44,278 nucleotides of DNA from Polyangium sp. 15x6 (GTDB lineage Bacteria > Myxococcota_A > Polyangia > Polyangiales > Polyangiaceae), in NCBI RefSeq assembly GCF_029960785.1, contig NZ_JASBQE010000099.1, forward strand, positions 1 through 44,278. Reading direction: 5' to 3'. Within the stretch, counting starts at the first letter, position 1; each line of letters begins with the position of its first letter. Both the position numbers and the translations under genes were made by a program. Shown here in pieces: positions 28,564-44,278 of the stretch. The notes under the pieces are model-generated. The model ran no database searches. It worked only from the letters and a program-made list of their open reading frames with translations, and had not been told where the DNA came from.

Positions 28564-28638
<75 letters not shown>

Positions 28639-28969: not shown

Positions 28970-30424
28970 CTAGGGAGCGTCCGATCGCTTTCTGTTAGCG
29001 ATCCTACGGGCGGCCTCTTCGAGGTCCTGCTTCATGAAGTGCACGTACTTCTGCGTGGTCGCCAGGTGCTTGTGACCTGCCATCCGCTGGACAACATGGA
29101 CAGGGACACCTGCGCGGAGCCATGAAGTGATCGCGTAGTGTCTAGAGCAATACGCCTCGCGTTCACTTTCGCTTGATTTTACCGACACTTGACTCGTCGG
29201 GGTCGTGCCTCCCCGATCGTTTTCCGACAGATTCCCGCCGCCCGCGGATCCCTCGCCGGCCGGGACGAGCAGGCAGGCAGGCAGGGGTGGGAAGACTTCG
29301 CCGGCGTTGCCCCGGAGCGCTTCACCTTCGCGGATGTAGACCAAGGTCGAGTTGAAGTTCTGGTGTCCCGCGCGCTGCATGATGACGTGCGGAGTGTCCC
29401 CACGCATGGCCATCCACGTGATCCCCGTTGCGCGGAGATCGTGAAACGTCATCCGCTTGTGGAGCTCGTCGGCGATGTACAGGTCCGGGCGATCGAGTCC
29501 GGCCGTCTGCATCGCCGCGCGGAAGCGCCGCGCCATGTGCTCGCCATAGACCGGAATTACCCGGCCGCTCTCGTCACGTTCGGCGTACAGCACGCGAAGC
29601 AGGGGAAGTAGATTCGGCTCGATGCGGAAGGCCCGCGGGCGCCTGGTCTTTGTCCCCTTCTCCTGTTTCCGAGCGCGATCGAAGCTGCGGCGGACATAGA
29701 TGACGCCCTCCTGTAGGTTAACGTCGGTCCACCGCAGACGAAGGATCTCCGATATGCGGGAGTAGAGGTATATGGCAAGCGTCGCCAGCCGGCGCATTTC
29801 GAGCGGTACGTTTTCGCACGACACGAGTTGCAGGAACTCTCTCGGGAAAAGGTACACCTTGGATCGTTGATTGCCCCGGTCAGGACCCACGACGCCCTGC
29901 GCTGGGTTGTCTTTGCGGACGCGCAGCGCGAGGTTTTTCGCCGACGATGCGTCCCTGAATAGCTTGTGCACCGCAAGCCATAGCTTTTTCGCGCTGCGCC
30001 ACGAATACTCACCTTGGACGATCTTCTTGTCGAGGACTTGGACCAGTCTTTCCAAATCCTCGCGCGTGATCGTTGCGATTGGCTTCTCTCCGATGGCCGG
30101 CACGACGTGCAGCGTAAAGGCGGAGCGGTCGCTCTTGATGCTGGTATATCCTCGCTCCTCGCGGTCCCTTATCCACCGCTCGAAATACGCGGCGAATGTC
30201 TCTCCCTTTGGAATGGGCGCGCCCTTGCTCCGCTCGCGCGCCTGCTGGTCGAGCCGTTCGCGCGCCTTGTCGGGGTTGTCCGTGTAGAACTTCGCCGTCT
30301 CGCGGGCGCGAGCTTCGGACATGCCCGGGGGGAGGTGGATCCGCACGTAGCGGCCGTCCAGAAGGACGCGCGCCACGTAATGGTCACCTTCAAGCAATAT
30401 GTTACCAGTGCGACGGCGGCCCAT
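28970..30424 (-). CDS. Tyrosine recombinase (integrase) with duplicated C-terminal catalytic box
   Basis: The product is 484 residues from ATG 30424. The N-terminal region is AP2-like/arm-binding (GNILLEGDHYVARVLLDGRY). A SAM-like core-binding domain follows (TFAAYFERWIRDREERGYTS). The catalytic domain has the first Arg in YLYSRISEILRLRW, then FHDLRATGITWMAM, RAGHQNF and the nucleophile STLVY. About 100 residues later a second box appears: SRHYAITSWLRAG, QRMAGHKHL, TTQKY. In both boxes Arg-to-GH spacing (21) and GH-to-Tyr spacing (8) are identical. The HDLR His is missing in the second box. The extra tail could be a remnant of another integrase fused at the attachment side. Insertion into the adjacent tRNA-Thr is inferred. 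Confidence 0.9.
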   Translation of the reverse strand: MGRRRTGNILLEGDHYVARVLLDGRYVRIHLPPGMSEARARETAKFYTDNPDKARERLDQQARERSKGAPIPKGETFAAYFERWIRDREERGYTSIKSDRSAFTLHVVPAIGEKPIATITREDLERLVQVLDKKIVQGEYSWRSAKKLWLAVHKLFRDASSAKNLALRVRKDNPAQGVVGPDRGNQRSKVYLFPREFLQLVSCENVPLEMRRLATLAIYLYSRISEILRLRWTDVNLQEGVIYVRRSFDRARKQEKGTKTRRPRAFRIEPNLLPLLRVLYAERDESGRVIPVYGEHMARRFRAAMQTAGLDRPDLYIADELHKRMTFHDLRATGITWMAMRGDTPHVIMQRAGHQNFNSTLVYIREGEALRGNAGEVFPPLPACLLVPAGEGSAGGGNLSENDRGGTTPTSQVSVKSSESEREAYCSRHYAITSWLRAGVPVHVVQRMAGHKHLATTQKYVHFMKQDLEEAARRIANRKRSDAP

Positions 30425-31478
30425 ATTACAGGACCTCCGCGCTTGAAAAATGGCTGGATCTTGCCCAGATGGACGGTATGGTGCCCATAGGTCAAACCTC
30501 GATTACCGCGGGGTTTGTCTCAGGGTCCCCGTGCATGTTAGCTGCATGCATGGGGGCCCGCTTTTTGTACTGCCCTACCAGCCGACCACACCCCCCGGCG
30601 GGCGTCAAGGGTCCGCCTCGGCCGCTCGGTTGGCTCGCGGCGGCGCGCAGCGGGCCCGTGACGGGATCGGCGAGGGGAGAGCGGCCCGGCGTCGCATCGA
30701 GCACGCTGCGCCCGTCCTCGCGCCCGTGGGGGGACGTGGCAGAACTGCGCCGGCCGGCCTCGGCGCGGGGGGACCTCGGCGAGCTCGCGGGGGCTCTCGA
30801 GGTCCGGCTCGTGCTCGCGTTCGGCCTCGGCCTCGGCGCGCCCGTGCGATCGGCTCGCGGCGGCGCGTAGGCGCCTCGTGCTCGCGCCCGCGTCGCGGTA
30901 GCGCCCGAACCCTGCTTCGCTCCCCTCGCCGATCTTCTCGCGCCCGCTGCGCGCCCGCGTCGGGGTGCTCTCGAGCTTGGTTCGTCCGGGCGATCGGCTC
31001 GCGCGTGGTGGGGGGCGCGCTCGCGCCCTTCGTCCGGGCGCGCCTCGGCGCGCGCATGTCCGCCCGGCGCAGCGGCGGCGCGGCGGCGCGGGGTGATGCT
31101 CTCGAGGTCCGCCTCGTGCTCGTCCTCGGCGGGCGCACGCTCGCCCGTGCGGCTCGATCGGCTCGCGGCGGCGCGATGCTCCGCGCAGCGTGGCCCGTTC
31201 GGAAGCGCGGCGAGCTCGCGGCCGTCCTCGGCCTCGATGTCTCGACGGGCGAAGGGCGGATCGGTCCGTTCGGGCGGCGCGCATCGAGGCGCCGCTCGTG
31301 TATGGTTCGTCATGGCATATCAGCGGCGGCGCTCGCGTGCGCCTCGCCCCTCCCTTTCGAGTGCTTCAATCCCAGCGCGCCCGCCCCCCACGGGCGCGCA
31401 CGATGGCCGAGGACGCGCGAGCACGAGGCCGATCGAGGTCTCGACGGTCCGGACCTCGCGCGAGGCGCCTCGGCGGAA
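30425..31478. repeat. Non-coding GC-rich word mosaic, block 1
   Basis: I find no credible gene in this kilobase; open frames on both strands give only Arg/Ala/Pro-rich nonsense. It is made of recurrent words. Positions 30847-30867 and 31155-31175 are an exact 21-base match, and GATGCTCTCGAGGTCCG (31095-31111) returns at 39165-39181. The first ~150 bases (30425-30580) are lower in GC and should contain the integrase promoter. Confidence 0.65.
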
Positions 31479-31907
31479 TCAGCGGCGGCGCGGGCGCGGG
31501 CTCCGTTCCGTGGTCGGGCCCTGCTTCGGGTCTCGACCCATGAAGAGCTCGTGCTCCTCGGCGGGCGATAAGGCGTTCACGTCGACGGGCGGCGCGGCGC
31601 GGGCGAAGGGAGGCGGGCGCGGCGCTCGCGGGGGCGCGCCCTCTTGCGCCTCGATGAACGCGTGAGCCTCATCCCGCAGCACGAGGATCGTCTTCCCGTC
31701 GGGCGCCTTGAAGCTCCGGAGCTTCCCTTGCCCCGTGAGCCGCTGGAAGGACCGTTCGCCCCAGGGGAAGGTTTTCCGGTCGTAGTACCTCGGCCCCTCG
31801 TCGCCTTTGGTGTGCTTTGCCGCCTCATTCCGGACGAGGCGGAAGAAGTAGGAAAGCAGGATCAACGCGGCTTCGCGCACGTCGGGCGGGATCTCTTGCG
31901 GGTTCAT
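31479..31907 (-). CDS. Putative excisionase-like winged-helix protein
   Basis: The product is 142 residues from ATG 31907, with AAGGAG a few bases upstream. Residues about 1-35 form a helix (DVREAALILLSYFFRLVRNE). The centre, RKTFPWGERSFQRLTGQGKL followed by RSFKAPDGKTILVLRDEAHAFI, has the helix-turn-helix plus beta-wing look of MerR/Xis-type DNA-binding proteins. The C-terminal third is Pro/Ala/Arg-rich mosaic sequence. Small size, DNA-binding look and position about 1 kb from the integrase gene on the same strand suggest a recombination directionality factor or regulator. The family is not certain. Confidence 0.7.
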   Translation of the reverse strand: MNPQEIPPDVREAALILLSYFFRLVRNEAAKHTKGDEGPRYYDRKTFPWGERSFQRLTGQGKLRSFKAPDGKTILVLRDEAHAFIEAQEGAPPRAPRPPPFARAAPPVDVNALSPAEEHELFMGRDPKQGPTTERSPRPRRR

Positions 31908-32150
31908 GGTCTCCTTTCGACGGATCACGGCGCAGCGCTGCAAAGCTACGCACGAGGCGCAGCTTTCCAGACGGCGCAATCCCAGCGCTCGCGGGGGGGC
32001 GGCGCTGTCGGAACTGTCGAAAGTGTTTAGCGCGGGGTCTCGGGCCCGATCAACTCGCTGTCTCCAGCGGGCGCTGCTGGAAAAGCGTGCGGGCCGCTAC
32101 ATGCAAGAGGCCATTCACCAGCGGGCGCTGGCGAAAAAACGTACGCGCCG
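31908..32150. repeat. Intergenic region with a 37-base imperfect direct repeat
   Basis: Copies at 32064-32100 and 32118-32154 begin CCAGCGGGCGCTG and end CCGCTAC. They are 54 bases apart, exactly 18 codons. On the plus strand they read QRALLEKRAGRY and QRALAKKRTRRY in one open frame (to a stop near 32175). This suggests the remnant of a charged helical coding sequence running into the 3' end of the convergent gene. Confidence 0.45.
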
Positions 32151-33209
32151 CTACGAGCGCTTGGGTTTGAGGTAGAATCCGAACCAGCGGCTTATTTGAG
32201 TTTCCGTCATCCCCGAAACCTTACATTCGCCCCGAAGTATCTCGAAAGCAAGCTCGGCGGCAACTTCGTTCACACCGCACTCGATTCCGATTTTTCTGCT
32301 TTCTTCCATTGTTCGTGCCCGGATTTGGTCGAGGTTGCACAGATAGGCTTCAAGCCGTGCGCCAAGTTTCTCGCTACAACCGCGATCCCGTCGCGCCTCT
32401 TGGATTGATGGGATCTGCGGGAAATAGATATAGGCCCACGACTTGACGAACGGCACGTTGTCCTCGAATTTGGCAGGCTTACGCCAATGATCTATAGGCA
32501 CGACGCCCATGGGATGATAACGAAACCTGGCCATCACATGGGCGAGCACGTCCAGTTTAGAGCGATCTTGTTTGGGCTTTTCAGTGGCCGCCATCGTGGC
32601 ATGGGCTTCTGAACGCTCAAGTGCAATCTTGTGGCCGTGAATGAGCACGGCGAGTCGATTTTGAAAAATTCTGAACCGTCCGGCCAGGCTCGCAAACCCT
32701 AATGCATGTCCTTTCTCATCTTCGTCTGGCATCGGATCATCATAGTCGCGGAGAAGCCTGCGGGCGGCGCTGTAAACACCATGCGGCGCACACAGATCGG
32801 CGCCCTGATCTTTTGATATGGCACGTCCAATTGCAGACAAAATTCGGTGAACAACGAATGCGCCGTCGTCGAGGTGATAGTTTGCGTGCTGATAGAAGTG
32901 CTTGGAAAGCGCATGCAGCTTGTGCACCAAGGGATGCTCGTTATGCAAGGGCCCGTCTTTCTCAGGGTCGTAACGATTGCTAGAGGCGTTCCTCCGTGCG
33001 GCTGCCAAGCTCGCCGTGGCAACGGGGTCTGTTCCTTGGCTCTTCGTCGCGGCGGCGCTCTTCGTCGCGGCGGCGCTCTTCGTCGCGGCGGCGCTCTTCG
33101 TCGCGGCGGCGCTCTTCGTCGCGGCGGCGCTCTTCGTTGCGGCGCTCGCGGCCTTGCGCCGCGCATCGCCCTTGCCCTGCTTACTCGTGCTCGCTTTCCC
33201 CGTCGCCAT
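32151..33209 (-). CDS. Unknown cargo protein with Ala/Lys repeat tail
   Basis: No family is recognised. The product is 352 residues from ATG 33209. The N-terminal ~65 residues are low-complexity and basic, with five to six KSAAAT units encoded by a perfect 18-base tandem repeat, much like a histone H1-type or disordered nucleic-acid-binding tail. The rest is globular and lower in GC: HPLVHKLHALSKHFYQHANY, PHGVYSAARRLLRDYDDPMP, VPFVKSWAYIYFPQIPSIQE, and a C-terminal MTETQISRWFGFYLKPKRS. It has no signal peptide or membrane span. The contrast between GC-rich repeat N-terminus and AT-richer body suggests a foreign body fused to local repeat DNA. Confidence 0.75.
   Translation of the reverse strand: MATGKASTSKQGKGDARRKAASAATKSAAATKSAAATKSAAATKSAAATKSAAATKSQGTDPVATASLAAARRNASSNRYDPEKDGPLHNEHPLVHKLHALSKHFYQHANYHLDDGAFVVHRILSAIGRAISKDQGADLCAPHGVYSAARRLLRDYDDPMPDEDEKGHALGFASLAGRFRIFQNRLAVLIHGHKIALERSEAHATMAATEKPKQDRSKLDVLAHVMARFRYHPMGVVPIDHWRKPAKFEDNVPFVKSWAYIYFPQIPSIQEARRDRGCSEKLGARLEAYLCNLDQIRARTMEESRKIGIECGVNEVAAELAFEILRGECKVSGMTETQISRWFGFYLKPKRS
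33042..33131. repeat. Five perfect 18-base tandem repeats
   Basis: The unit CTTCGTCGCGGCGGCGCT is repeated exactly five times with a degenerate partial sixth copy (33132-33146). It lies inside the 5' part of the minus-strand gene and encodes KSAAAT. Unit length is a multiple of three, so copy-number change would keep frame. Confidence 0.95.
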
Positions 33210-33858
33210 GCGCGGGATCGTGTGGTCCGTCCTCGAGATCCCCAAGTTTTCGGCGAGGGGGCCGAGGTCCGGCCGGGCGTAGCTCCTCGCGGCCGAGGCC
33301 GGGCGCTTGCGATCGGTGGACGTGCACGAACTCGCGGCGCGGCCGAGGACGAGCGTGCTCCGCGCCGCCCTCGATGATCGCCGGGCCAAGGGACCGCGGA
33401 CCATGGGCGCAGCGGGCCGAGGACGAGCGCCGGCTCGACGTGCACGAGCTCGCGGCCGAGGCCGAAGAGGACGAGCGCCGGCTCGCCGAGGACGAGCGCC
33501 TGGCCAAGAGCTCGCGGGGTGCAGCTCGACGTGCGACGCCGGGCGGCGCTGGGGGCCGAGGCCGAGGCCCCAGCGGGCGCAACAGGCCAAGGACGAGCGC
33601 CGGCTCGACGTGCACGAGCTCGCGGCGCGGCTCGATCGGCTCGCCCGTCCCCCGCCCGGTCCGCGGGGAGCAAGATTCCGACGCTCGCCCGGCCGGACCT
33701 CCGCGCGAGCAATCGAGCGGCAACCCTCGCCAATCGAGCGGTATGCATGACGGGGATCCCAGCCGATTGCATAGCATTGACGCTCGATTATGCTCACACG
33801 TACGTGCACGAAATGGGCTTGCGTGCCTCGTGCGCGTCGTGGATAGTATCGGCCAGCT
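33210..33858. repeat. Non-coding GC-rich word mosaic, block 2
   Basis: No convincing gene. A 36-base sequence beginning GGACGAGCGCCGGCTCGACG is exact at 33421-33456 and 33591-33626. Related words (CGGCTCGATCGGCTCGCC, GCGCTGGGGGCCGAGG) match other blocks of the island. The last ~100 bases (33760-33858) are less GC-rich and precede the LacI-like gene, with a TTGCGT and a GATAGTAT that could be promoter elements. Confidence 0.65.
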
Positions 33859-34131
33859 ATGCGAAACCTCGACAGACTGAACGATAGACAGCGCGTTCTG
33901 CTCGTCGCTGGCGCGGCGGACCTTCACCCGATCACCGCGGGGCACGTGCTCGGCGGAAAACCCGTCTCGAGGAAGACGCGGATCGCTCTCGAGCGGGCCC
34001 GCGCGAACCTGGACGCGATCCGGGAAGAGCTCGGCGCGGCGCTCGATCGGCTCGCGGCGAACGATACCGCGACCACGGCCGGCGCAGTGTCCTCGGCCTC
34101 GATGCCGGGCGGCGCGGCGGCGCTCGCCTGA
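33859..34131 (+). CDS. Small LacI-like helix-turn-helix protein
   Basis: The product is 90 residues from ATG 33859. Residues about 17-52 (AADLHPITAGHVLGGKPVSR then KTRIALERARANL) align by eye with the LacI headpiece pattern (GVSxxTVSxVLNGxxxVSxxTRxRVxxA), including the hinge-like spacing. No ligand-binding domain follows; the tail (TTAGAVSSASMPGGAAALA) is built from an island repeat word. It is likely a small DNA-binding regulator of the replication module that starts downstream. I see no strong Shine-Dalgarno. Confidence 0.65.
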   Translation: MRNLDRLNDRQRVLLVAGAADLHPITAGHVLGGKPVSRKTRIALERARANLDAIREELGAALDRLAANDTATTAGAVSSASMPGGAAALA

Positions 34132-34177
34132 ACGAACGCGAGGCGCGAGCGTCCTCGGCCTCGATGCCGGGCGGCGC
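34089..34177. repeat. 27-base direct repeat
   Basis: The same 27 bases, beginning GTCCTCGGCCTCGATGCCGG, occur at 34089-34115 (inside the 3' end of the LacI-like gene) and 34151-34177 (intergenic), 62 bases apart. The rest of the gap to 34351 holds a CCGC-rich stretch with no gene. Confidence 0.9.
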
Positions 34178-34351
34178 TCGCGCCCTCGCAATGACATTGC
34201 AGGGGGACGCGTCGAAAGGAGGGCGGCGCGGCGGGATAGGTGCGCGCTGCGATGGCTCGCGCGAGCGGCGATCGTGTGCGCTGGGATTGTGTACCAAGAA
34301 AAACGGCCGCCCCGGGGGGACACCCGGACGGCCGCGGATGGTCGAGAGGAC

Positions 34352-36154
34352 ATGAAGCTAGCAAAATCAGAACTCGAATGCAATGGGACCGGCGAGGATG
34401 AGCATGCCCTCGATGCTCTCGACGGCCGCCCTGTCGACGCTGGGGAGCTTCCGCGCAAGGCCGAGGCGGGCGCGGCGATCGGGACGGCCGAGGCTCGCGG
34501 CGAACCATGCGAGGCCGAGGCCGAGCATGATGGCGGCCGTCCGCCTGGCGAGGAGGACAAGCGCGCTTCCTCCCCTCGCCCGTCGAAGGGCGCCGAGGCG
34601 CAAGGCAAGGCCCGCGGGCGCAAGCGATCCCAGCCGCGAGCGCCTGACCATCCCCCGGGGGATTGGCGGTCCGCCATCGTGTACACGTACACGCGCGACA
34701 GCCGCAAAATTCGCCACGTCACAGCAAATGCCATCACGATTCTTTCGCATGACGAATCGTGGCAAGGCGTCTTCGCGTGGGATGAATTCGTCGCTGCGAT
34801 CGTGTGCATTCACTCGCCGCCGTGGCACCCCGACGACGACGACGGCGCGCCGCTATCGCAGTGGACGGAGACGGACGTCACGAAGCTACAGGCATGGCTC
34901 GTGCGCCGTTACGAGCTCGAATTGACCCCGCCACAGTGCTACGCAGCGGCCGAGCTTGTGGCGAAAAAGCGCCGGATCCACCCTATCCGTGATTGGCTGC
35001 GCGGCCTTCGATGGGACGGCGAAAAACGCCTCGAGACGTGGTTGATCCGTCACCTCGGCGCGCCTGATACGCAGTACGTGCGCCTCGTGTCGCGCTGGTT
35101 TCTCGTGTCGGCCGTGGCACGGGCGATGCGGCCCGGGGAGAAGGTCGACACGATGTTGATCCTTGAAGGACTCCAGGGGATCAAGAAAAGCACGACGCTG
35201 CGCACCCTGTTCGGCGCGACGTGGTTCTCCGACGCGTCGATCGACTGGACGAGCAAGGACCGTTTCGAGGTCCTGCGCGGGCGCTGGTGCGTCGAGATGG
35301 CCGAGCTCGATGGGATCCACAAGGCCGAGGTTTCCAGGGTCAAGGCGTTCCTCGCGACGCAGGAGGATCACTACCGCCGACCATACGCGAAAGCGGCGGA
35401 CACCGCGCCGAGGCAATGCGTGTTCGCGGGAACGGTCAACCCGAACGCGCTCGGGACGTACCTCCGCGACGACGAAAACCGGCGTTTCTGGCCCGTGCGC
35501 TGCACGCACGAGGCGGACCTCGGCGCGCTCGCGGCCGAGCGCGAATTGTTGTTCGCCGAGGCGCTTGCGCGATACGAGGATCCGGATCCTGATTCTCGCC
35601 GCTGGTGGCCCGAGACAGCCGAGGAAAAGGCCGTGTGCGCGGCCGAGGCCGAGAAGCGCCGCCTCGGCGATGCCTGGCAGGGTTTCGTTGACGATTACTT
35701 GGAAAAGCCGACGCGCGAGGCGGTCACGATCTCAGAGATCCTGGAGCACGCGGTCAAGCTCGATGCATCCAGAATGGACCATGGCGCGAGCGTCCGGGCC
35801 GCTACGTGCCTCGCTCGTGCGGGCTGGATCAGGGACGGCCGCGAGCGCCGCGACGGCCGCAGGGAGACCGTCTACAAGCGACCCGCGAAAAACGCGGCGA
35901 GCGCCGAGGCAGGCGCGCAGCTACCGCGCGAGGACGCGGGCGCGAACGACCCGGCGGAACCCGCTCCCGCCTCGCCGTCTCGACCCGTGGACACGCGCCC
36001 GCGAGGCCGGTACGGGTGCCGCTGCACGATTACGCCGGAATGTAGCTGTCGTCCGTGCAAAAATGGCTGTTGTAGCAATTCGGAATGCATGCCAAACGGT
36101 TATTTCGGCCCGAATCGTCCGGACGACCATTGTGATGGGTTTTGCTATGACTGA
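34352..36154 (+). CDS. VapE-type replication helicase with N-terminal linker and Cys-rich tail
   Basis: The product is 600 residues from ATG 34352 (GAGAGG just upstream); a GTG at 34274 is possible. The first ~105 residues are low-complexity Glu/Ala/Arg. The virulence-associated E domain follows: WQGVFAWDEFVAAIV, IHPIRDWLRGLRWDG, ATP-binding GLQGIKKSTTLR (about 270-282), ERW-like RGRWCVEMAELDG, and the arginine-finger region DDENRRFWPVRC. The usual GK of Walker A reads KK. The last ~50 residues contain about 12 Cys (YGCRCTITPECSCRPC, NGCCSNSEC, HCDGFCYD), a possible zinc-binding tail. VapE proteins are replicative superfamily 3-like helicases of phage satellites and plasmids. The stop overlaps the primase-like start by 8 bases. 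Confidence 0.88.
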   Translation: MKLAKSELECNGTGEDEHALDALDGRPVDAGELPRKAEAGAAIGTAEARGEPCEAEAEHDGGRPPGEEDKRASSPRPSKGAEAQGKARGRKRSQPRAPDHPPGDWRSAIVYTYTRDSRKIRHVTANAITILSHDESWQGVFAWDEFVAAIVCIHSPPWHPDDDDGAPLSQWTETDVTKLQAWLVRRYELELTPPQCYAAAELVAKKRRIHPIRDWLRGLRWDGEKRLETWLIRHLGAPDTQYVRLVSRWFLVSAVARAMRPGEKVDTMLILEGLQGIKKSTTLRTLFGATWFSDASIDWTSKDRFEVLRGRWCVEMAELDGIHKAEVSRVKAFLATQEDHYRRPYAKAADTAPRQCVFAGTVNPNALGTYLRDDENRRFWPVRCTHEADLGALAAERELLFAEALARYEDPDPDSRRWWPETAEEKAVCAAEAEKRRLGDAWQGFVDDYLEKPTREAVTISEILEHAVKLDASRMDHGASVRAATCLARAGWIRDGRERRDGRRETVYKRPAKNAASAEAGAQLPREDAGANDPAEPAPASPSRPVDTRPRGRYGCRCTITPECSCRPCKNGCCSNSECMPNGYFGPNRPDDHCDGFCYD

Positions 36155-37073
36155 CCGTATATGCCCTCACGGCCGATATGGGAACCCTCCGCGCCGCCCG
36201 GCGTCGCAAGGGGGCTCGACGTCGGGCAGACGGCCGCCCGCGCGTTCGTCGCCTGCTTCCGCCTCGCCGCGCGTGCGCCTCGATGATGCGCCCTTCGCTC
36301 GCGTGCTGGACACCCTCGCGCGTCTCGGTTCCCTCGAGAGCGATCACGCTGCGCCCATTGCGCACGCTCTCGACCGTGCTGGATTGCTCGGCCATGCGCG
36401 CCGCGCGGGGTGGACGGCGCTCCCTGCCTTCGATGTCCTCGCGCGTGCGCTCTCCACGGCCGAGCTCGTCGGCGCTGGGCTCGCGCGTCTCGACGCGGGC
36501 GGCATGCGCCCGCAATGGCCCGCGCATCGTCTCTTGATCCCCTGGACGGCCGAGGCGGGCGCGGAGCACGAGCACGAGCGCACCTTCGCCCGGCGCTCGC
36601 TCCTACCGCCTGACGAACGCTTTCCCGTCACGATATGGCCCCCCGGGCGGCGCGCTCGCGGCCTGCTTCGGATCGGTCCGGCGGAAGCGGCGAGGGATGC
36701 GCGCAAGGTGCTCGTCCCTGATGCCCTGGACGCGCTCGCCTTGCTCGCATACGCCGAGGCGCGCGGGCGGGCGGCCGTCGCCTACGTCGTGCCCTGGCCC
36801 GAATGGCTCCCCCTCGATGGGCTCCCCTTCGCGCCGGGCAAGCGTGTCCAAGTGTCGATCCCGCGCCCTCACGGATACGAGCTCGCGCGGCGCCTCGCGG
36901 CTCGCGGGGTAAAGGTGTACGAGCTCGCGCCGCCCGTAGGCGCGTCGTGGGGGGAGACGTGGGAAGCGTACCGCAGCGGGCACGAGGCCGGACGCGAGGC
37001 CGAAGCGGGCGGCGAGCGCGGCGAGCGCGGCGAGCGCGGCGAGCACGAGGCCGATCCCAGCGCTCGCGCGTGA
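36147..37073 (+). CDS. Primase-like protein with degenerate TOPRIM domain
   Basis: The product is 308 residues from ATG 36147, overlapping the helicase gene by 8 bases. By eye the order matches phage-type primases: an N-terminal helical part with RLLIPWTAEAGAEHEHERTF (cf. R-hhIPh...G), then a TOPRIM-like stretch. There KVLVPDALDALALLAYAEAR stands where VEGxxDALAL is expected, KRVQVSIPRPHGYELARRLA where DxDxAGxxxA is expected, and KVYELAPPVGASWGETWEAY where LPxGxDxxD is expected. The acidic metal ligands are thus replaced, so catalysis by this domain is doubtful. It may be a primase accessory subunit to the VapE helicase. The C-terminus ends in GERGERGEHE from a 9-base tandem repeat (about 37010-37043). 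Confidence 0.65.
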   Translation: MTDRICPHGRYGNPPRRPASQGGSTSGRRPPARSSPASASPRVRLDDAPFARVLDTLARLGSLESDHAAPIAHALDRAGLLGHARRAGWTALPAFDVLARALSTAELVGAGLARLDAGGMRPQWPAHRLLIPWTAEAGAEHEHERTFARRSLLPPDERFPVTIWPPGRRARGLLRIGPAEAARDARKVLVPDALDALALLAYAEARGRAAVAYVVPWPEWLPLDGLPFAPGKRVQVSIPRPHGYELARRLAARGVKVYELAPPVGASWGETWEAYRSGHEAGREAEAGGERGERGERGEHEADPSARA

Positions 37074-37189
37074 CGAATGCAAGGCCGGGCGGGGGCTCGA
37101 TGGGTGGCGCGCCGAGGCCAATGGGGACGAGTACGCCGGCCGTCTGGGTGGCGAACAGACGCGGGCGCTCGGCCGGGAGTGCGCCACGC

Positions 37190-37519
37190 CTACAGATTGT
37201 AGACTTTCTGCATGTATGCTTCGCAGGCGTCCCCTGACCCGGACTTGTAATGTCCAGCCGCCTCGGCGCGCCGCACGAAACGAAGGATGGCCTTTAGCTC
37301 GTACTTTGCAGGGCGGTCCATTGGATTGTCCTGCAAGTAGCAGCCAAGGTTGTGATAAAAGATACTTCCTGGCTCCCCATTAGACGGGCCGTAGGTGGCG
37401 AATGCCAGAGCTTCGTCAGGATCGCTGATGGCGTCGAGTCCACGTTCATAGATCGGCCACGCCCGGCGGTCTGCGAGGTCCTTGTCGGCCTGCTGGTCAT
37501 GTTGATTCTTTGGCGCCAT
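37190..37519 (-). CDS. Small unknown cargo protein
   Basis: I do not recognise this 109-residue protein. It starts MAPKNQHDQQADKDLADRRA. Conserved-looking segments are AWPIYERGLDAISDPDEALA, GSIFYHNLGCYLQDNP and KAILRFVRRAEAAGHYK. There is no signal peptide or membrane span. The gene is less GC-rich than its flanks, lies on the minus strand between plus-strand core genes, and is bounded on both sides by GC-rich mosaic sequence. No strong Shine-Dalgarno is visible before ATG 37519. Confidence 0.65.
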   Translation of the reverse strand: MAPKNQHDQQADKDLADRRAWPIYERGLDAISDPDEALAFATYGPSNGEPGSIFYHNLGCYLQDNPMDRPAKYELKAILRFVRRAEAAGHYKSGSGDACEAYMQKVYNL

Positions 37520-37868
37520 GGGGGCGGATGGTTACATGCGACGCTGGACGTGTCACGTCGAAAGGGCGGGCGTGGCACTGGACTTTCGAGGTCCGGGCTC
37601 GCGGCGTTCGACGCGCGGGCGGACAGACCAACGGGCGCAGCGGACATGGCGCGCGTGGCTCTACGTGCACGCGCTCGCGTCGCTCGTCCCCCTCGCGGCC
37701 GAGCGCTCGATCGCCCGCGGCGGCGCGCAGCGGCCTCTACGTGCCATCGAGGGACCGGACGGGCATCGAGGCGCCTCGGCGCGGCTCGCGCGTCGTGACA
37801 GGCGCACCGGCCGAGGACGGGTAAGGCAGGGCGATCGGCGTGCTGACCCCTCGCATACGCTGCGCTGC
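37520..37868. repeat. Non-coding GC-rich word mosaic, block 3
   Basis: Nothing gene-like is seen. It contains TTTCGAGGTCCGG, CTCGCGGCG and CCCGCGGCGGCGCGCAGCGG words shared with blocks 1 and 4. The stretch separates two minus-strand genes. Confidence 0.55.
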
Positions 37869-38738
37869 CTAGACGTCGCGCGTGTGTGGGTTGAATATCT
37901 TCACATCGCCAGCGCCCACCGCGATCGCACTCACGCGTGGGTCATGCTTTTTCGATTCGTATTTCGCGCGGTATTGTGCCTTGTCAGCGAGATCGCCAAT
38001 GGTTTTGGCGTCCAGGTTGGGATCCGTAGTGCATGCGCTCCCGCACGAGGCCGTGAGGATCAGCTCCTCCCCATCGAGCACAAGGGGATCCTTCGCAAGC
38101 TGCCGCGCGAAATTGTCGAGAAGCTTTGCGGCGGCTGCATCATCTACATTGGGCAGGATGACGACGACTTCATCGCTTCCCTCTCCACGGTACGCTTCGC
38201 CGCGCTCGCCGAACGTCGCAATAACGGCTTCAAGATAAGCCTTAATTGCCCTATTCCCGCCCGCGTGTCTGTGCTTATCGTTGATCGCCTTGAGCCCATT
38301 CATGTCGAGGTACGCGACCGACAAGGGGGTCTCATTGCTCGCGGACAGCAAAGCAATCGCCAGCTCAGTCTCCATGTGCCGCATCGCCACGCATAGCTCC
38401 GTGGGATCTCGGCCGCGGCCAGTGCGGAGTTGTTGCTGAAGCTCGGAAAGGCGCACTCGGCCCTTGTGGGTGATTTTGAGCGTCAAAGGCACGCGCCTGA
38501 TTACTTTCAGCATACTGCGCGAGCGCTCGCTTTCTTGCGTGTCTGTTATCTGATGCGGCATCAAGCGCGTCAAGCGTTCCAGTGCATCGAGGCCGTCATT
38601 ACAATAACCATCAGCAATAAATGACATGATCATTTGCTGGTCCTCGACGCGCTCTGGCGGTGCTACAAATTCGAGCTCACCACGATCCAACCGTGCCAAA
38701 AATTGCATTTCCCTAATCCGCGCGTCCGTCCGGCTCAT
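37869..38738 (-). CDS. GGDEF-domain protein with variant signature (GSDEV)
   Basis: The product is 289 residues from ATG 38738. The N-terminal ~120 residues include a winged-helix-like part (VPLTLKITHKGRVRLSELQQ) and no membrane span or known sensor. Residues about 130-275 are a GGDEF-type palm domain: SVAYLDMNGLKAINDKHRHA (first metal Asp and the usual N-D/GH positions), GGNRAIKAYLEAVIATFGER, then AYRGEGSDEVVVILPNVDD, where GGDEF reads GSDEV. The metal-binding acidic residues appear kept, so nucleotide cyclase or polymerase activity is possible, though the product need not be c-di-GMP. It is lower in GC than the mosaic around it and sits as cargo in the mobile element. Confidence 0.8.
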   Translation of the reverse strand: MSRTDARIREMQFLARLDRGELEFVAPPERVEDQQMIMSFIADGYCNDGLDALERLTRLMPHQITDTQESERSRSMLKVIRRVPLTLKITHKGRVRLSELQQQLRTGRGRDPTELCVAMRHMETELAIALLSASNETPLSVAYLDMNGLKAINDKHRHAGGNRAIKAYLEAVIATFGERGEAYRGEGSDEVVVILPNVDDAAAAKLLDNFARQLAKDPLVLDGEELILTASCGSACTTDPNLDAKTIGDLADKAQYRAKYESKKHDPRVSAIAVGAGDVKIFNPHTRDV

Positions 38739-39210
38739 AATGCCATCGTACCACGTTCGACAAGGGAGCAGGCAAGCAAGAAGCGCTTGTTTTTCGGCGG
38801 CCTTGGGGGCGTGGGAGCCGCTGCGTGTGCTCGATGGCCGGGCGCCCTACATCGGCCGCGTGCTCGTGCTCCTCGCGCGGGGTGCGACGGCCGGCGCTCG
38901 CCGATCGGCTCACGGGCGGCGCTGGGGGGCCGAGGACGCATCGAAGGGGACGGGGGGACCTCGGGCCCGTTGGGAGCTGCTACCGGGCGTCCTCGCGGCG
39001 ATGGGGGCCCGCTGGCGTTCGGCGAGGTCCGCGGGGCGCTGGGGGGACCATGCGCGCGCCGAGGCGCCGCTCGTGCTCCGCGCCGCCGCTGCGCGCACGT
39101 GGGGAGAGCGGCGAGGGGGTGCGGTTGGCAGGGTGCTCGCGGCGCTCGTGCTCGCCCCCCCCTCGATGCTCTCGAGGTCCGGAAACGCGGCGTTTCCCGT
39201 GGCTCCCCCT
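38739..39210. repeat. Non-coding GC-rich word mosaic, block 4
   Basis: No credible gene. The words GCTCGTGCTCCTCG (38869, and again 39530) and GATGCTCTCGAGGTCCG (39165-39181, also 31095-31111) tie it to the other mosaics. It directly abuts the iteron-like region. Confidence 0.6.
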
Positions 39211-39223
39211 GGCCAGTCTTGGG

Positions 39224-39500
39224 AGATTGGCCGCAGATTGGCCAGAGATTGGACACCGCAAAAAGCCTTGCGATCCCGCCTCATCTGCACACGTGTCCAA
39301 TGTGTCCAAGCATAAGCGTACGCGCACACATAGAGAACATGCAGCACCCTTCCGCCGGAAGGGGAGGCGCGCACGCGATACGCGCACGTGTACACGTGGA
39401 AGATGTTGAGCGAACCCCTTGGACAGATTGGCCGATTGGACACTCCGCTGAAACCATTGGGGAATCTCTGGCCAATCTGTTGGCCAACCCTAGGCCAATC
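39224..39500. promoter_or_regulatory. Iteron-like repeats: candidate origin or control region
   Basis: AGATTGGCC-type boxes start at 39224, 39235 and 39246 (exactly 11 bases apart) and at 39425. Inverted GGCCAA(T/C) boxes start at 39470, 39482 and 39493 (12 and 11 apart). TTGGACAC/GTGTCCAA boxes recur around 39249, 39293, 39301 and 39436. Between the clusters lie the 14-base palindrome CACGTGTACACGTG (39385-39398) and a CCCTTCC-GCC-GGAAGGG hairpin near 39348. The stretch is AT-richer than its flanks. Layout suits an origin for the VapE/primase module or multi-operator control of the operon at 39836. Confidence 0.55.
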
Positions 39501-39561
39501 AGAGGTAGCTTACACCCCTCGCGCGGCCGCTCGTGCTCCTCGCACGATGGCCGAGGAGCTT

Positions 39562-39585
39562 TGCACAGTTTGGCGAGGCTGTGCA
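39562..39585. promoter_or_regulatory. Operator-like inverted repeat upstream of MobC-like gene
   Basis: Perfect 7-base arms TGCACAG and CTGTGCA with a 10-base spacer, about 250 bases before the start at 39836. It overlaps a TTGCAC that could act as a -35 box. The gap 39586-39835 has no convincing gene. Confidence 0.4.
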
Positions 39586-39835
39586 TTCTAAACAGTATAG
39601 GGGGATTTTCAGGCACAAGGGAGGCGACTTTCCCGCGAAAGCCCCAACGCGTCGAAATCGTCGGTGACGCTGGGAACACGGCGAATCCTGCGATCTCATG
39701 CGTATCGTGCACGTGAATGTCGCTGCCGGTTCCCCTTGCCGCTCGCGTTTCGTGCACGCTATTCGCGAAAAACGCGCCTCGATGCTCCTCGCTTCTGGCC
39801 ATAATCGCGCCGCGCTGCTATGCTCCGCGTGCACA

Positions 39836-40948
39836 ATGGGCCGCCCCCGACGATGTTTCAGTGAGCCGGCCTCGGAATTCGTGTCCTTTCGGCTCACGCG
39901 GGCCGAGGCCGAGGCGCTACAATCAGCGGCCGAGGAAGCCGGGATCGCGAGGAACGAATACGCCCGGCGCACGATGCTCGGCCATCTGTCCAGCCGAGGC
40001 TACGCGCCGCCCGCGCCGCCTCGCGCCCTTCGCCGCGTCTCTCCCGTCGATGCCGGTCCGCGCGAGCCGCGCGAGCCGATCCCGCTGCGCGCATCCTCCG
40101 CGCCCGCGCTCGCCGAGGCGCCTGCGGGCCGCAACGTCGTGAGCCTCGATGCGCGCCCGCCTCCGCGCTCGCCGAGGCGCCCGTCCTCGGCCGCTGCGCG
40201 CCGCTCGATCGGGACGAGCGCCCCCCTTGCCGCTGCCCTCGCCGATCCGCCTCTCGACGTCGCGCCCGTGCTCGCCGAGGCGCGCCCGCTGCGCCCGTCT
40301 GTCGAGACGAACGGAGCCGCGCCGCCCGCCGCTCCCGTCGATGCCGGTCCGGCCGATCGTCCCCCGTCCGCGCCCGCTGAGGCCGAGGCGCCTCGCCGCG
40401 AGCCGCGCGAGCCGATCGGCGAGCACGAGCGCGGCCTCGAAGATGCTCGCCGCCCGGCATCCTCTCGCGCCGCCGCTGCGCCCGCCGAGGCCGAGGAAGC
40501 TCTCGACGCCCGGCCGGCGCTTCCGACGCTCGCCGCGAGCGCGACGCGCGAGGCTCACGAGGCCGGCCTCGATGTGCCGGCCGAGGCCGATCCGGATCAC
40601 GCTCTCGACGCGCCGCCCGCGTCCGTGCACGAGCTCGCCGAGGTCCCTGCGAACGAGGCGCGCCTCGATGATGCCCCGGAGCTCTCCGAAGCAGGGGCGG
40701 CCGTCCTCGCAGCGGCGCGGTCCCTCGCCGCGCTGGATCCTTCTGCGCCGATCCCCGCGCCCGTGCTCGTCCTCGAGGTCCACGTGGGCGGGATGTCCCT
40801 CGAGGAAGCGCGCGCCGCCGTGCTCGTGCTCGTCACGCGCGGCGAGCTCGCGGCCGAGGCGGGCGACGACGCGAGCGGCCTCGCGCCCGTCGATGCGTCC
40901 GGACGAACGATCACCGCGGTCCGCCTCGCGACCGCATTGGAGGGTTGA
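39836..40948 (+). CDS. MobC-like ribbon-helix-helix protein with long Ala/Pro linker
   Basis: The product is 370 residues from ATG 39836. The N-terminus, EFVSFRLTRAEAEALQSAAE then EAGIARNEYARRTMLGHL, has the strand-helix-helix pattern of MobC-like relaxosome/RHH proteins, starting with the basic MGRPRR. Residues about 55-290 are a low-complexity Ala/Pro/Glu linker with the same DNA words as the intergenic mosaics. A C-terminal ~70-residue domain (VLEVHVGGMSLEEARAAVLV, LVTRGELAAEAG, RTITAVRLATALEG) looks like a small winged helix. It may bind the nearby iteron-like or oriT-like repeats. No relaxase is seen. It is the first gene of a three-gene operon. Confidence 0.65.
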   Translation: MGRPRRCFSEPASEFVSFRLTRAEAEALQSAAEEAGIARNEYARRTMLGHLSSRGYAPPAPPRALRRVSPVDAGPREPREPIPLRASSAPALAEAPAGRNVVSLDARPPPRSPRRPSSAAARRSIGTSAPLAAALADPPLDVAPVLAEARPLRPSVETNGAAPPAAPVDAGPADRPPSAPAEAEAPRREPREPIGEHERGLEDARRPASSRAAAAPAEAEEALDARPALPTLAASATREAHEAGLDVPAEADPDHALDAPPASVHELAEVPANEARLDDAPELSEAGAAVLAAARSLAALDPSAPIPAPVLVLEVHVGGMSLEEARAAVLVLVTRGELAAEAGDDASGLAPVDASGRTITAVRLATALEG

Positions 40949-40950
40949 CC

Positions 40951-41469
40951 GTGCTCCCGAACCTCGCGGCCGAGGTGGCATTTTGGCAAAAGGCATTCGG
41001 CCTCGATGACTGGACGATCGAGGCGCGCCACGTCGAGAATCTTCGCTACCCGTGCAACGACGCGGGCGCGGGATACCCGGCGAAGGGCGAACGCATGGCG
41101 GGATTGTGCGACGCCGATCGCGTTGCGCGGACCGCACGGATCCGGATCTGCACGCCCCGCACGTTTCGCCAGCTACGGCAATGGCCCGAGGCCGTCTGTC
41201 ACGAGGTCATGCACGTCCTCGGCGCGGCGTGCCGCACGCCCGGATGGACCATTCAAAACGAGCATCGGTCGATCAACATCATTGCCCCGATGCTCGTCAA
41301 GGCAAAGCGCAAGGATCCGGCGCTCGCCGCTCGCGCGGCCGAGGCTTTGGCGGAAGCGTACCGCCGCGCCGCCGCTGCGCTCTCTCCGCCCACGATATCG
41401 CCCATCGTCGCGGAAGCCGATCGCGCCGCCGCAATGAGTGTTTCGCCGCCCGCGGGCGGCGCTCGATGA
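40951..41469 (+). CDS. Phage-type HExxH putative zinc metallopeptidase
   Basis: The product is 172 residues. GTG 40951 is chosen because GGAGGG lies 6 bases upstream; a TTG at 40945 would abut it. It starts two bases after the previous stop. FWQKAFGLDDWTIEARHV begins the domain and AVCHEVMHVLGA contains HExxH (residues 84-88). The downstream NEHRSINIIAPMLV offers a Glu as third zinc ligand, as in gluzincin-like phage proteins of similar size. Residues 41-55 contain GYPAKGERMAGLC. The C-terminus is Ala-rich. The substrate is unknown; peptidase activity is inferred from the motif. Confidence 0.7.
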   Translation: MLPNLAAEVAFWQKAFGLDDWTIEARHVENLRYPCNDAGAGYPAKGERMAGLCDADRVARTARIRICTPRTFRQLRQWPEAVCHEVMHVLGAACRTPGWTIQNEHRSINIIAPMLVKAKRKDPALAARAAEALAEAYRRAAAALSPPTISPIVAEADRAAAMSVSPPAGGAR

Positions 41470-41484
41470 AAGGAAGCGTTTCCC

Positions 41485-42828
41485 ATGAAAAACCCTCTCG
41501 GCCGTCTGTTTTCCGCTCTCGGGGGGACCTCCGCGCCCGCGCCCGCTGCGCCCCCGTCTCGCCCGGCATTGCCGCCCGCTCCCCCCTCGCCGCCCTCTGT
41601 CGAGGTCCAGCGCGCCGAGGCGACCGTCCTCGAATGCGAGCGCGCCGAGGCCGAGGCGCGGGCGGCGCTTGCGGCGGCCCGTATGCCCTACGAGGACGCG
41701 CAGCGCGCGCATCAAGCGGCGCTTCGGGCGCTGCACGAGGCCGAGGACGCTGCGGCCTCGGCTCCCGATGACGAGCGCGCGGCATCGACGCTCGCGGCGG
41801 CGCAGCAAGCCGAGGCGCGCGCCGCTGGGATCCTCGCGTCCTTTTCGCGGCGGCATGACGCGGCCGGCGCGTCCCTCGAAAAGGCCCGCGCGGCGCTCGC
41901 GGCGGCGCGCATCCGTCTCGAGGGGGCTCGCGCGGACGCCGATCGGGCCGAGGCCGAGGCGCGCATCGTGCGGGCCGAAGAGGACGCGCAGAAGGCGAGC
42001 GCGGCCTACGTCTCGACGCACCCAGGGCCGAAGCTCGCGGCGATCCTCGACATGTCGCGCAAGGCGTTCGGCGAGGCGCGCGCGCGTGCCGGAACCCTCC
42101 GCGCCGAGGTGTTCGCCGCTCTCGACGCGGCCGAGGCGGGCGATCGGCGAGCGCTCGCGGCGGAGCCGCATCGGGCCGAGCAGATCAAGGCCGAGGCCGA
42201 GGAGCGCCGCGCCGCCGCTCGTGCCGTCCTCGAATCCCTCGCCGATGTCGAGCGCTGGTATTCGCACGCTGCGCCCGCGGTTGCCATGCTTGCGCTCGCG
42301 GGCGAGCTGGAACGCGAGGCGCGCGGGATGCTCGGCGAGCTCGCGGCCGAGGCGCACGAGGCCGGCGTCGATGCGCGCAAGGTGGGGAGCGAATTCGAGC
42401 CGGTGACTCCGAAGCTCGCCGAGGCGGCCGTGATGCTCGGTCGGTTCCTGGGAAGACCCGCCGAGGAGCGGACCGAAGCCGAGCGGCAATCGTACACGAT
42501 CGATATCGCGATCATGCGAGCACTCTCGACGCAATGGAGCCTGTCGGATCGATTGCACGAGGGAAACCACGGGCGGACCTTGACCAGCGAGGAGCGGGCG
42601 CGCTTGCTTCTACGCGATCCGGGCGGGAAGCCCCGGGCGATGCTCCGCGCCGATCATGCGCGCCTCGTGGCGCAGGGCGATCGGACGGCGCTCGAATACG
42701 AGGAGAAGCAGGGGCGAGGGACGGATTCGAGGCTCGCGGCGATGCGGGCCGAGGACGAACGAAACGCGGCCGAGGCGCGCGCCCGCGGGCAAGGTCGGGA
42801 CGGGCGCGGGGTGTTCGTCCCGAATTGA
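41485..42828 (+). CDS. Ala/Glu-rich coiled-coil protein
   Basis: No family is recognised. The product is 447 residues from ATG 41485, with AAGGAAG upstream. A Pro/Ala linker (about 15-40) is followed by about 200 residues of Ala/Glu/Arg heptad-like sequence (ERAEAEARAALAAARMPYED; ASLEKARAALAAARIRLEGA). A more globular helical part (about 250-380: AVAMLALAGELEREARGMLG; QSYTIDIAIMRALSTQWSLS) and a charged tail follow. Composition resembles phage scaffolding or tape-like proteins, or an SMC-like rod, but nothing decides between them. It ends the operon with the MobC-like and HExxH genes. Confidence 0.7.
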   Translation: MKNPLGRLFSALGGTSAPAPAAPPSRPALPPAPPSPPSVEVQRAEATVLECERAEAEARAALAAARMPYEDAQRAHQAALRALHEAEDAAASAPDDERAASTLAAAQQAEARAAGILASFSRRHDAAGASLEKARAALAAARIRLEGARADADRAEAEARIVRAEEDAQKASAAYVSTHPGPKLAAILDMSRKAFGEARARAGTLRAEVFAALDAAEAGDRRALAAEPHRAEQIKAEAEERRAAARAVLESLADVERWYSHAAPAVAMLALAGELEREARGMLGELAAEAHEAGVDARKVGSEFEPVTPKLAEAAVMLGRFLGRPAEERTEAERQSYTIDIAIMRALSTQWSLSDRLHEGNHGRTLTSEERARLLLRDPGGKPRAMLRADHARLVAQGDRTALEYEEKQGRGTDSRLAAMRAEDERNAAEARARGQGRDGRGVFVPN

Positions 42829-42981
42829 GCGCCGCTCCCCTCGCGGTTCCCTTCCGTCTTCCTGGACAATCGGACCCAGCAAGAGGCGACTGTGATCCTG
42901 GCCGCTACGCTTGACGAGTAGCATCGCAAGCGGCGCGCGGCATACTTCGCCAGCGGGAATGCGCGGGCACCGCCCTACGGG

Positions 42982-43938
42982 TCACCCGCTGTGCGCCATT
43001 CGCTTGACTTCATCAGCGAACGTCGAAGCCCTTCTGCGTCCGGTTGCCGCATCAATCAGGATAAATTGATTCGTAAAATGAGGGTAGTCAGAGCGATGTT
43101 CCGTGACGGGGATCATAGCATCGAACACACCAAGGATTCGCACATATACGCTAACGGCGTTCTGTGAAGCAAGCCCGACTCCGATAAGGGAATCCGGCTC
43201 ATTCTTCCAGAACGGCAACGACCAGTGCTCCGAACCAAACGAAATCTGGCCACGAATGGCGTACTTGCGCGCGATTTCATAAGGCATGTGAGCATCCCGC
43301 ATACAATTGCGAATGTCCGGCGCGGCCGGGTCGTCCAGGTATCGATCGCCGAGCCACAGATGTGCGAGTTCGTAAACGATCTTCAGTATCCCTCGTCGAT
43401 AGTGGGTAACATCGAGCGACAAGGGCACATTAATTGTAGGGTTCTCTGTACAGGTGACCCGTGATGCAATCCGCGCGATTTCGTCTTCGTTCAGCGGTGG
43501 TGCACCTTCGCGGGCAAGGCTCTTATTTATGATATCGCCGAGTCTGTTGGCGTCGCGTGCGTCGACGCAAAAATGCAGCTCCGCCCCCTCGCCGTTGTCG
43601 ACCTTTTTAATGCTGGGTATCGTGTAGATATACGGCTTCCCGCCGCTTCGTTGTTCGATTCTAACTTTGACGTCCGGGTCATCGTGTAGCGTGCCTCGCT
43701 CCAGTGGATTAGGCAGATAACCTCCCTTCCCCGAGAGGCCGAGACGGTTACGAACAAGCCCGATGAGCGGGTGATTCGTTAATGGCGCGTCCGCGACTTG
43801 GCCTAGAACATCGTTACAAGGCTTGCACACTCTATTCGTCGTCAGTGTTCCTCCAACGGCTTCGGGAAAAATGTGCTCTTTGGAGAGTTTCTTAGGGGGA
43901 TTGTCGGCTAGACAAATGATGCACTTCATCGTTCTCAT
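42982..43938 (-). CDS. HNH endonuclease-type cargo protein (HNH_5-like)
   Basis: The product is 318 residues from ATG 43938; a second ATG at 43929 is possible. The N-terminal zinc/HNH part reads MKCIICLADNPPKKLSKEHI, then FPEAVGGTLTTNRVCKPCND, with paired CxxC knuckles and the SKEHIFPEAVGG core seen in HNH_5-type nucleases of defence and mobile loci. The remaining ~260 residues are a distinct domain (RGILKIVYELAHLWLGDRYL; HFTNQFILIDAATGRRR) that I cannot assign, perhaps for target recognition. It is clearly lower in GC than flanking DNA. It lies on the minus strand facing the coiled-coil gene, with a tandem-repeat block upstream. A restriction-like or anti-phage role is inference. Confidence 0.75.
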   Translation of the reverse strand: MRTMKCIICLADNPPKKLSKEHIFPEAVGGTLTTNRVCKPCNDVLGQVADAPLTNHPLIGLVRNRLGLSGKGGYLPNPLERGTLHDDPDVKVRIEQRSGGKPYIYTIPSIKKVDNGEGAELHFCVDARDANRLGDIINKSLAREGAPPLNEDEIARIASRVTCTENPTINVPLSLDVTHYRRGILKIVYELAHLWLGDRYLDDPAAPDIRNCMRDAHMPYEIARKYAIRGQISFGSEHWSLPFWKNEPDSLIGVGLASQNAVSVYVRILGVFDAMIPVTEHRSDYPHFTNQFILIDAATGRRRASTFADEVKRMAHSG

Positions 43939-43973
43939 TCGGCGTCAGATGGCCGTCGACCTAGCCTAGCATG

Positions 43974-44278
43974 ACCATGACCCCGGCGAGCGCCGCGAGC
44001 GGCGCGAGCTCGTGCTCGTGCTCTTCCCCCGGGCGGCGCGGCTCGACGCGCGAGGACGGCCGCGAGCGCTCCCCATCGAGGCGCCCTGGTCCTCGGCCTC
44101 GCTCGGCTCGACCATGACCCCGGCGAGCGCCGCGAGCGCCGCGAGGACGGCCGCGAGCTCGTGCTCGTGCTCTTCCCCCGGGCGGCGCGGCTCGACGCGC
44201 GAGGACGGCCGCGAGCGCTCCCCATCGAGGCGCCCTGGTCCTCGGCCTCGCTCGGCTCGACCATGACCCCGGCGAGCG
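43974..44278. repeat. Tandem repeat of 137/149 bases, cut by window end
   Basis: Units begin ACCATGACCCCGGCGAGCG at 43974, 44111 and 44260. The second unit is 12 bases longer because of an added GCGAGGACGGCC-like segment; otherwise they match nearly base for base. The third copy is cut by the window edge. The DNA uses the same GC-rich words as the island mosaics. No gene can be supported here. Confidence 0.9.

Follow-up and report, generated by a model that had tools for sequence, protein, structure and literature searches.

Introduction

Between the cargo genes and mobC of an integrative element of Polyangium sp. 15x6 lies an array of short boxes in both orientations, and the locus raises the question of what this array does and which protein of the element reads it. 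An earlier note on this DNA had read the array either as an iteron origin for a VapE/primase module or as an oriT/operator bound by an RHH protein. The window, that is to say the whole stretch of 44,278 nucleotides that was analysed (contig G000:C274), was compared with five relatives of its genus. We conclude, with a probability of about 0.86, that the array is the replication origin of the element and that its partner is the VapE-family SF3 helicase of the same element, in the manner of SaPI/PICI and P4 replicons. We favour this reading because the helicase body and the array differ together between sister elements, because the boxes are conserved, and because such arrays co-locate with SF3 helicase genes.

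The element and its genes

The integrative element runs rightwards from a tRNA-Thr and a tyrosine integrase. It encodes a VapE-family SF3 helicase and a MobC/NikA-like RHH protein, together with a primase-like ORF and cargo genes, one of which is a GGDEF gene:

28564–28638, forward strand: tRNA-Thr(CGT), probable attachment side (tRNA search result)
28970–30424, reverse strand: tyrosine integrase of the element (PF00589, E 4.9e-25)
33859–34131, forward strand: small conserved ORF (ORF90, 90 aa) upstream of vapE, 94–97% identical in the sister elements (in G002 over 72 of 90 residues)
34274–36154, forward strand: VapE-family SF3 helicase, proposed initiator (PF05272, E 4.9e-67; 7pds_A, E 2.1e-50)
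36180–37073, forward strand: primase-like accessory ORF, a label of our own reading (without a match in Pfam or PHROGs; present in G002, missing from G004:C68)
39836–40948, forward strand: MobC/NikA-like RHH protein, neighbour of the array (PF21983, E 2.5e-07)

The vapE stop (36154) and the start of the array (39208) are 3.05 kb apart, with other genes between them.

Several further features of the window were recorded. A LysR gene (26778–27611) lies outside the element. Residues 406–480 of the integrase (the 3′ end of int, 28970–29200) match a stretch near the far end of the G001 contig (21053–21277) at 60%, and the matches of the sister integrases to the window integrase stop at residue 430–445; the 3′ end of int looks to have been swapped by integration or fused to the remnant of another recombinase. 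A 149-bp near-perfect tandem repeat (97%), to which repeats in the sister elements correspond, occupies the contig end (43986–44278) and is probably an assembly break point. An 18-bp unit is repeated in 5.9 copies (98% identical) at 33039–33144, within a region of overlapping ORFs, and HNH endonuclease-like proteins are encoded both in the left part of the window (12122–13717) and near its right end (42982–43938). No relatives of the element were confirmed in viral contigs.

Layout of the array

De novo motif analysis revealed a single box family, TGKCCAAT, with about 13 copies at 39208–39500 (13 motif sites); the box reads TGKCCAATC on one strand and GATTGGMCA on the other. AGATTGGCC and TTGGACAC are two forms of this box, so that TTGGACAC is not the separate interleaved box that it had been taken for. 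The parts of the array are, in order and with the strand being that which reads TGKCCAAT:

39208–39218, forward strand: outermost box, weak, CCTGGCCAGTC (motif sites)
39225–39257, reverse strand: outer left array, three boxes (11-mers from 39225, 39236 and 39247) at 11-bp pitch (motif sites; same in G004 and G001)
39292–39311, forward strand: inner left array, two boxes (39292 and 39301) at 9-bp pitch (motif sites, mirrored-quartet scan)
39312–39416, no strand: spacer between the inner arrays, proposed melting region, 60% G+C versus 69% for the window (G+C count)
39417–39444, reverse strand: inner right array, three boxes (39417, 39426 and 39434) at pitches of 9 and 8 bp (motif sites, mirrored-quartet scan)
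39456–39466, forward strand: weak box, ATTGGGGAATC (motif sites)
39467–39500, forward strand: outer right array, three boxes (39467, 39479 and 39490) at pitches of 12 and 11 bp (motif sites; relatives)

Each half of the array consists of an outer triplet (11–12-bp pitch) and an inner group (8–9-bp pitch), and the two halves are rough mirror images around the 105-bp spacer. The earlier note had correctly described the three left boxes in 11-bp phase (39224, 39235 and 39246, the third being AGATTGGAC) and the three inverted boxes 12 and 11 bp apart; its list lacked the inner groups, which stand in opposite orientations. The AT-richer gap that it had reported was also found (57.9% G+C versus 69.3% for the window), and the spacer, at its lower G+C content, is still not AT-rich in absolute terms. 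The hairpin (39347–39363) and the palindrome (39385–39398) that it had marked both exist and lie within the spacer, but their sequences change in the sister elements.

A conserved spacer hairpin was considered and is not claimed: the window and G004 each have a stem, but across 29 origins the stems in the spacers exceed those of shuffled spacers only slightly (19/29, mean +0.5 bp). Alternating purine–pyrimidine runs are present in the spacers of both array types, ACGCGCACGTGTACACGTG in the window spacer and CGCGTGCGCGCACGCGCG in the other type (L031:11350–11380), and could favour Z-DNA or cruciforms.

The array exceeds chance and its boxes are conserved

At up to one mismatch, AGATTGGCC has 16 matches in the window compared with 8.2 ± 2.9 in shuffled sequences, and none of 100 shuffles reaches 16; seven of the 16 lie within 39211–39501, four of them exact (39224+, 39235+, 39425+ and 39470−). 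The mirrored inner quartet is the top scorer of the 44-kb window (score 40.2). Among resampled windows, the highest score of the first 100 was 40.3, and none of 300 further windows reached that of the quartet (highest 37.9).

Could the array be a chance product or low-complexity repeats of a G+C-rich genome? Its core, TTGGMC, shows no window-wide excess (33 copies in 44 kb versus 29.7 expected), and a plain k-mer cluster scan of the window puts the array in first place with 7-mers and in second with 6-mers, where the strongest cluster of the window is one of CGGGGA at 13781–14160 (10 copies in 320 bp; GCGGGGA, 8 copies). However, 12 of the 33 core copies are crowded into 0.3 kb (39227–39498), and the boxes are conserved above their surroundings; a chance origin of the array is hardly credible.

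The conservation was measured in the sister elements of G004 and G001, which belong to the same genus, have regional DNA identities of 87% and 83%, and keep the boxes. The box cores are kept at 221/232 (95%), compared with 300/366 (82%) between the boxes, and when the box mask was shifted circularly, none of the 298 positions was as conserved. On these alignments, conservation is stronger evidence for the array than the window-level statistics. The mirrored box array that the earlier note had described is confirmed.

In the plain k-mer cluster scan of the sister contigs, the array ranks first to third. In G004:C68 taken as a whole contig, an unrelated inverted repeat at 26.5 kb scores above the array as a mirrored quartet; we judge it to be a simple inverted repeat some 22 bp long and no origin. 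Box searches of the whole window showed no second array or crr-like site, and no Rfam match at the gathering threshold was found for a structured RNA in 29000–44278. The cumulative GC skew of the element peaks at about 39.0–39.6 kb, a peak that gene content may explain.

A sister element carries another helicase and another array

Comparison of the window with the sister element of G002 revealed a natural swap experiment. The G002 vapE keeps only residues 2–101 (65%), and the remainder up to the next ORF is a D5_N/DUF5906 helicase. Identity between the window and G002 is 47/54 just left of the array, 117/299 within it, and 288/316 (91%) from there rightwards to mobC. At the same place, G002 has an array of a different box with 12 sites of ATcCGTCAG (CTGACGG) in a similar mirrored layout, that is, three outer boxes (9 and 11 bp apart), one isolated inverted box, an inner pair 9 bp apart, a 73-bp step, and then a near mirror image. 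Around and between these exchanged parts, the proteins are closely related: ORF90 is 96% identical over 72 residues, the primase-like ORF 87%, MobC 85%, the HEVMH ORF 89%, and the coiled-coil ORF 91%. It is the helicase body, together with the array 3 kb away, that differs, and this joint difference ties the initiator to the origin without bench work. Because the sister with a different helicase has different mirrored repeats at the same place, next to near-identical right-hand genes, the origin reading is very probable.

The same comparison bears on the suggestion that the array is an oriT or an operator for the MobC/NikA-like RHH protein encoded just downstream. The array does lie upstream of a NikA-like gene, and mirrored boxes can serve as operators. 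However, residues 1–62 of the RHH protein are identical in G002, next to the well-kept mobC upstream region, whereas the array is unrelated; the RHH protein is therefore no confounder of the swap. An oriT of the MobC/NikA type would have its site conserved together with its RHH reader, and in G002 the site is not conserved. In addition, the comparable arrays described below were found at helicase 3′ ends in loci that had been selected for their helicase and not for MobC. The RHH protein is an unlikely box reader, and an oriT or operator function of this kind is very improbable. For the LacI-like protein also named as a possible binder, no LacI match was found among the 20 window ORFs scanned.

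Twelve window ORFs were compared with four sister contigs to find which other genes covary with the array, and only vapE and the integrase are kept well in G004 and G001 yet replaced or far diverged in G002. The primase-like ORF is kept when the array changes and is missing from G004:C68, which keeps the array; the partner is thus narrowed to the helicase. The GGDEF gene, ORF109, the HNH gene, and the 32151 ORF are each absent from at least one array-keeping sister. A 166-aa ORF beside the integrase is 88% identical in G004, 52% in G001, and 49% (75 aa) in G002. The comparison eliminated most other partner genes and left our confidence in the origin unchanged.

The array might instead be a regulatory or partition site, an operator cluster or centromere, of another exchanged DNA-binding protein encoded by the element, since cargo genes vary among the elements and phased-box arrays occur at partition sites too. 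Against this, those of the 12 window ORFs above that belong to the cargo are missing or divergent even in array-keeping sisters, a scan of 10 ORFs of the window and 6 of G002 gave no Par-family match, and arrays of the same geometry accompany SF3 helicases in other groups. We consider such a site improbable.

The G002 tyrosine integrase is only 34% identical to that of the window, so the integrase is a confounder within the genus, and the 12-ORF comparison confirmed it as such. This difference is what an assignment of the array to the integrase/excision module would build on. However, 9 kb separate the array from the integrase and from the tRNA-Thr side, and elsewhere such arrays stand at helicase 3′ ends; we give this assignment even less weight than the oriT.

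A second element fragment was found in the G004 assembly (G004:C93, locus L039, 5,718 bp). Its D5-type helicase shares 99% identity with the G002 one, and its primase-like ORF contains a stop; two replicon types thus seem to co-exist in one genome. No array matching this D5-type fragment was found in the G004 assembly.

Mirrored arrays at the 3′ ends of SF3 helicase genes

Homologues of both helicases within the order gave a set of 40 loci (20 VapE, 20 D5/DUF5906). In a first k-mer scan of the 36 loci with room for it, 16 had their best two-strand array between −150 and +450 relative to the helicase stop, compared with 1.6 expected. A mirrored detector was then defined that ignores box sequence and seeks two boxes at 8–10-bp pitch, a gap of 50–125 bp, and two inverted copies at 8–10-bp pitch; a locus was positive when its best quartet lay between −400 and +500 relative to the helicase stop. 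Twenty-five of the 40 loci were positive versus 2.9 expected (13/20 VapE, 12/20 D5/DUF5906), and a 9-bp pitch on both sides was commonest (13/25). The 900 bp 5′ of the start of the helicase match held the best quartet in one locus. With other mirrored pitches, the counts were 6/40 (5–7 bp), 5/40 (11–13), 2/40 (14–16), and 12/40 (17–19, twice nine); the unmirrored control was also raised (10/40 versus 2.9).

Because the −400 to +500 limits had been chosen after the order set was viewed, all settings were frozen for two new sets. In the wider phylum outside the order, 7 of 19 loci were positive versus 1.3 expected, all seven with pitch 9/9. The unmirrored control here exceeded the mirrored count (9/19), and the other pitches gave 2 (5–7), 4 (11–13), 1 (14–16), and 2 (17–19); these controls indicate that in distant clades box arrays persist, whereas the mirror plan may not. 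A set of 10 VapE-bearing plasmids and phages of other groups gave 7 positives versus 0.68 expected, with three unmirrored hits and none at pitches 5–7, 11–13, or 14–16. Over all sets, 39 of 69 loci had their best mirrored quartet at the 3′ end of the helicase gene versus about 4.9 expected, the loci being partly non-independent (L150 and L151 are nearly identical), and 30 loci place it away from the helicase. The iteron origin that the earlier note had proposed for the VapE/primase module is well supported by this survey together with the joint helicase–array difference and the 7pds match, with the helicase, and not the primase-like ORF, as partner.

One of the positives, plasmid pGO128 of Gluconobacter oxydans (4,340 bp, five annotated genes), has a VapE gene followed by a box array, which are likely the replicon of this plasmid. 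In 29 of 29 origins (the 25 and the four elements of the genus), spacer G+C is below that of its own locus, by 12.8 points on average. Box similarity follows helicase similarity weakly over 30 loci (Mantel rho 0.127, 5/500 permutations as high; 0.104 for the C-terminal 170 residues, 18/500 as high), and some VapE and D5 loci share very similar boxes.

In Corynebacterium phage CL31 (L199, about 280–410), a perfect mirrored quartet of CTTGTCCC at 9-bp pitch lies at an antirepressor gene edge, about 10 kb from vapE; an operator and a displaced origin are both possible readings of it.

The helicase and a proposed mechanism

The VapE of the window matches a solved VapE-type helicase, 7pds_A, which is labelled 'Similar to D. 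nodosus vapE'. For the G002 helicase the match is 7ola ('DNA primase', E 5e-8); we take both 7pds and 7ola to be SaPI Rep proteins. The structure model of whole VapE was poor (pLDDT 41), that of its C-terminal piece was mediocre (pLDDT 66), and a Foldseek search with this piece gave no match at E ≤ 0.001. In these weak models, the segment of about residues 449–537 runs helix, strand, helix, helix, and two strands, an order of elements that suggests a winged helix.

We propose that VapE would read the boxes through this C-terminal winged-helix-like segment, as printed for SaPI Rep and shown for the SCCmec helicase Cch2. The inversion of the inner groups (8–9-bp pitch) suggests that they could seat two helicase rings in opposite orientation, flanking the spacer. 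The outer 11-bp-pitch triplets might, at a guess, strengthen or regulate helicase loading. The spacer would then melt, and the two helicases would depart in opposite directions and replicate the excised element. Points against the origin reading are the 3.05-kb gap to vapE, the mild AT-richness of the spacer, the co-variation of the integrase, the weak Mantel correlation and the very similar boxes of some VapE and D5 loci, the raised unmirrored controls in the order and phylum sets and the count at pitch 11–13 in the latter, the 30 loci with their best quartet elsewhere, the P4 sites that the detector misses at standard settings, the higher-scoring inverted repeat of G004:C68, the lack of a matching array for the D5-type fragment in the G004 assembly, and the poor structure models.

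Implications

A broader generalisation, which we hold tentatively and at somewhat less than even odds, is that origins of SF3 initiator helicases share a geometry independent of box sequence (mirrored groups, about 9-bp pitch, 50–115 bp apart), that within it box sequences, and even VapE and D5/DUF5906 helicases, can be exchanged, and that elements trade initiator–origin pairs as cassettes, even when the two parts are 3 kb apart. If this is true, cassette trading may decide which elements co-exist in one cell, and VapE/D5 replicons in general, down to small plasmids, would follow a plan that has been described as exclusive to PICIs. The mirrored 9-bp detector gives candidate origins from sequence alone for helicases annotated just 'VapE' or 'DUF5906' in elements, plasmids, and phages.

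Comparison with known origins

According to Fillol-Salom et al. (2018; PMC6092414), PICI origins lie immediately 3′ of rep, with two iteron sets around an AT-rich region, and rep-ori replication was demonstrated in E. coli. PMC7581432 describes SaPI Rep as recognising iterons downstream of its own gene via its C-terminal domain, appearing to occupy them as two hexamers, and the SaPI primase as non-essential, which fits G004:C68 with its array and without a primase-like ORF; SaPI5 Rep is annotated as D5_N type according to PMC10061031. Comparison of the window with these PICI/SaPI rep-ori units revealed that (i) the element likewise has an SF3/AAA+ Rep-related helicase (the PF05272 and 7pds_A matches above); (ii) two sets of short iterons likewise flank a spacer, and there is a separate primase-like ORF; (iii) other genes and 3 kb of DNA separate the proposed origin of the element from the helicase gene, whereas the PICI ori adjoins rep; and (iv) the spacer is mildly AT-rich, a MobC-like gene is present, and the host is a myxobacterium. 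By analogy, the site would work like a PICI/P4 origin, a likeness at the level of the replicon; from the PICI replicon it departs in not adjoining rep.

In phage P4 (annotation of NC_001609), type I iterons are present in ori1 and crr, the sites of the alpha primase-helicase, and crr is directly 3′ of alpha. The P4 sites resemble the window array in having short iterons in both orientations, and each of the two crr repeats has one box pair at 9-bp pitch; they differ in the iteron (TGTTCACC versus the window box TGKCCAAT) and in forming two separated sites. The window array does not match the spacing of ori1 (four of six boxes, equalled by 85/400 random layouts). The left half of the G002 array, L136, and L137 each place six of six boxes within 3 bp, which none of 400 random layouts did, and the right half of the G002 array fits in mirror image (by hand). 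At standard settings the detector does not recover the known P4 sites; once the gap is reduced to 20, the top quartet lies in crr.

The putative origin of SCCmec is similar in that, according to PMC7581432, the initiator helicase Cch2 uses its C-terminal domain to bind repeats that immediately follow its own gene, and differs in its three direct iterons (AAGTG), its element, and its host. A literature search for VapE together with iterons and a replication origin found no paper, and among the matches listed for mobile elements, satellites, or origins of Polyangium and other myxobacteria, as far as the partly available sources go, there was no description of this element, subscription journals being thinly covered in both searches. 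The present finding would widen the origin plan described by Fillol-Salom et al. (PMC6092414). Relative to the known kind, what is new in the sequences compared is an origin that probably lies 3 kb from its helicase gene, and an initiator–origin pair that appears to be exchanged together.
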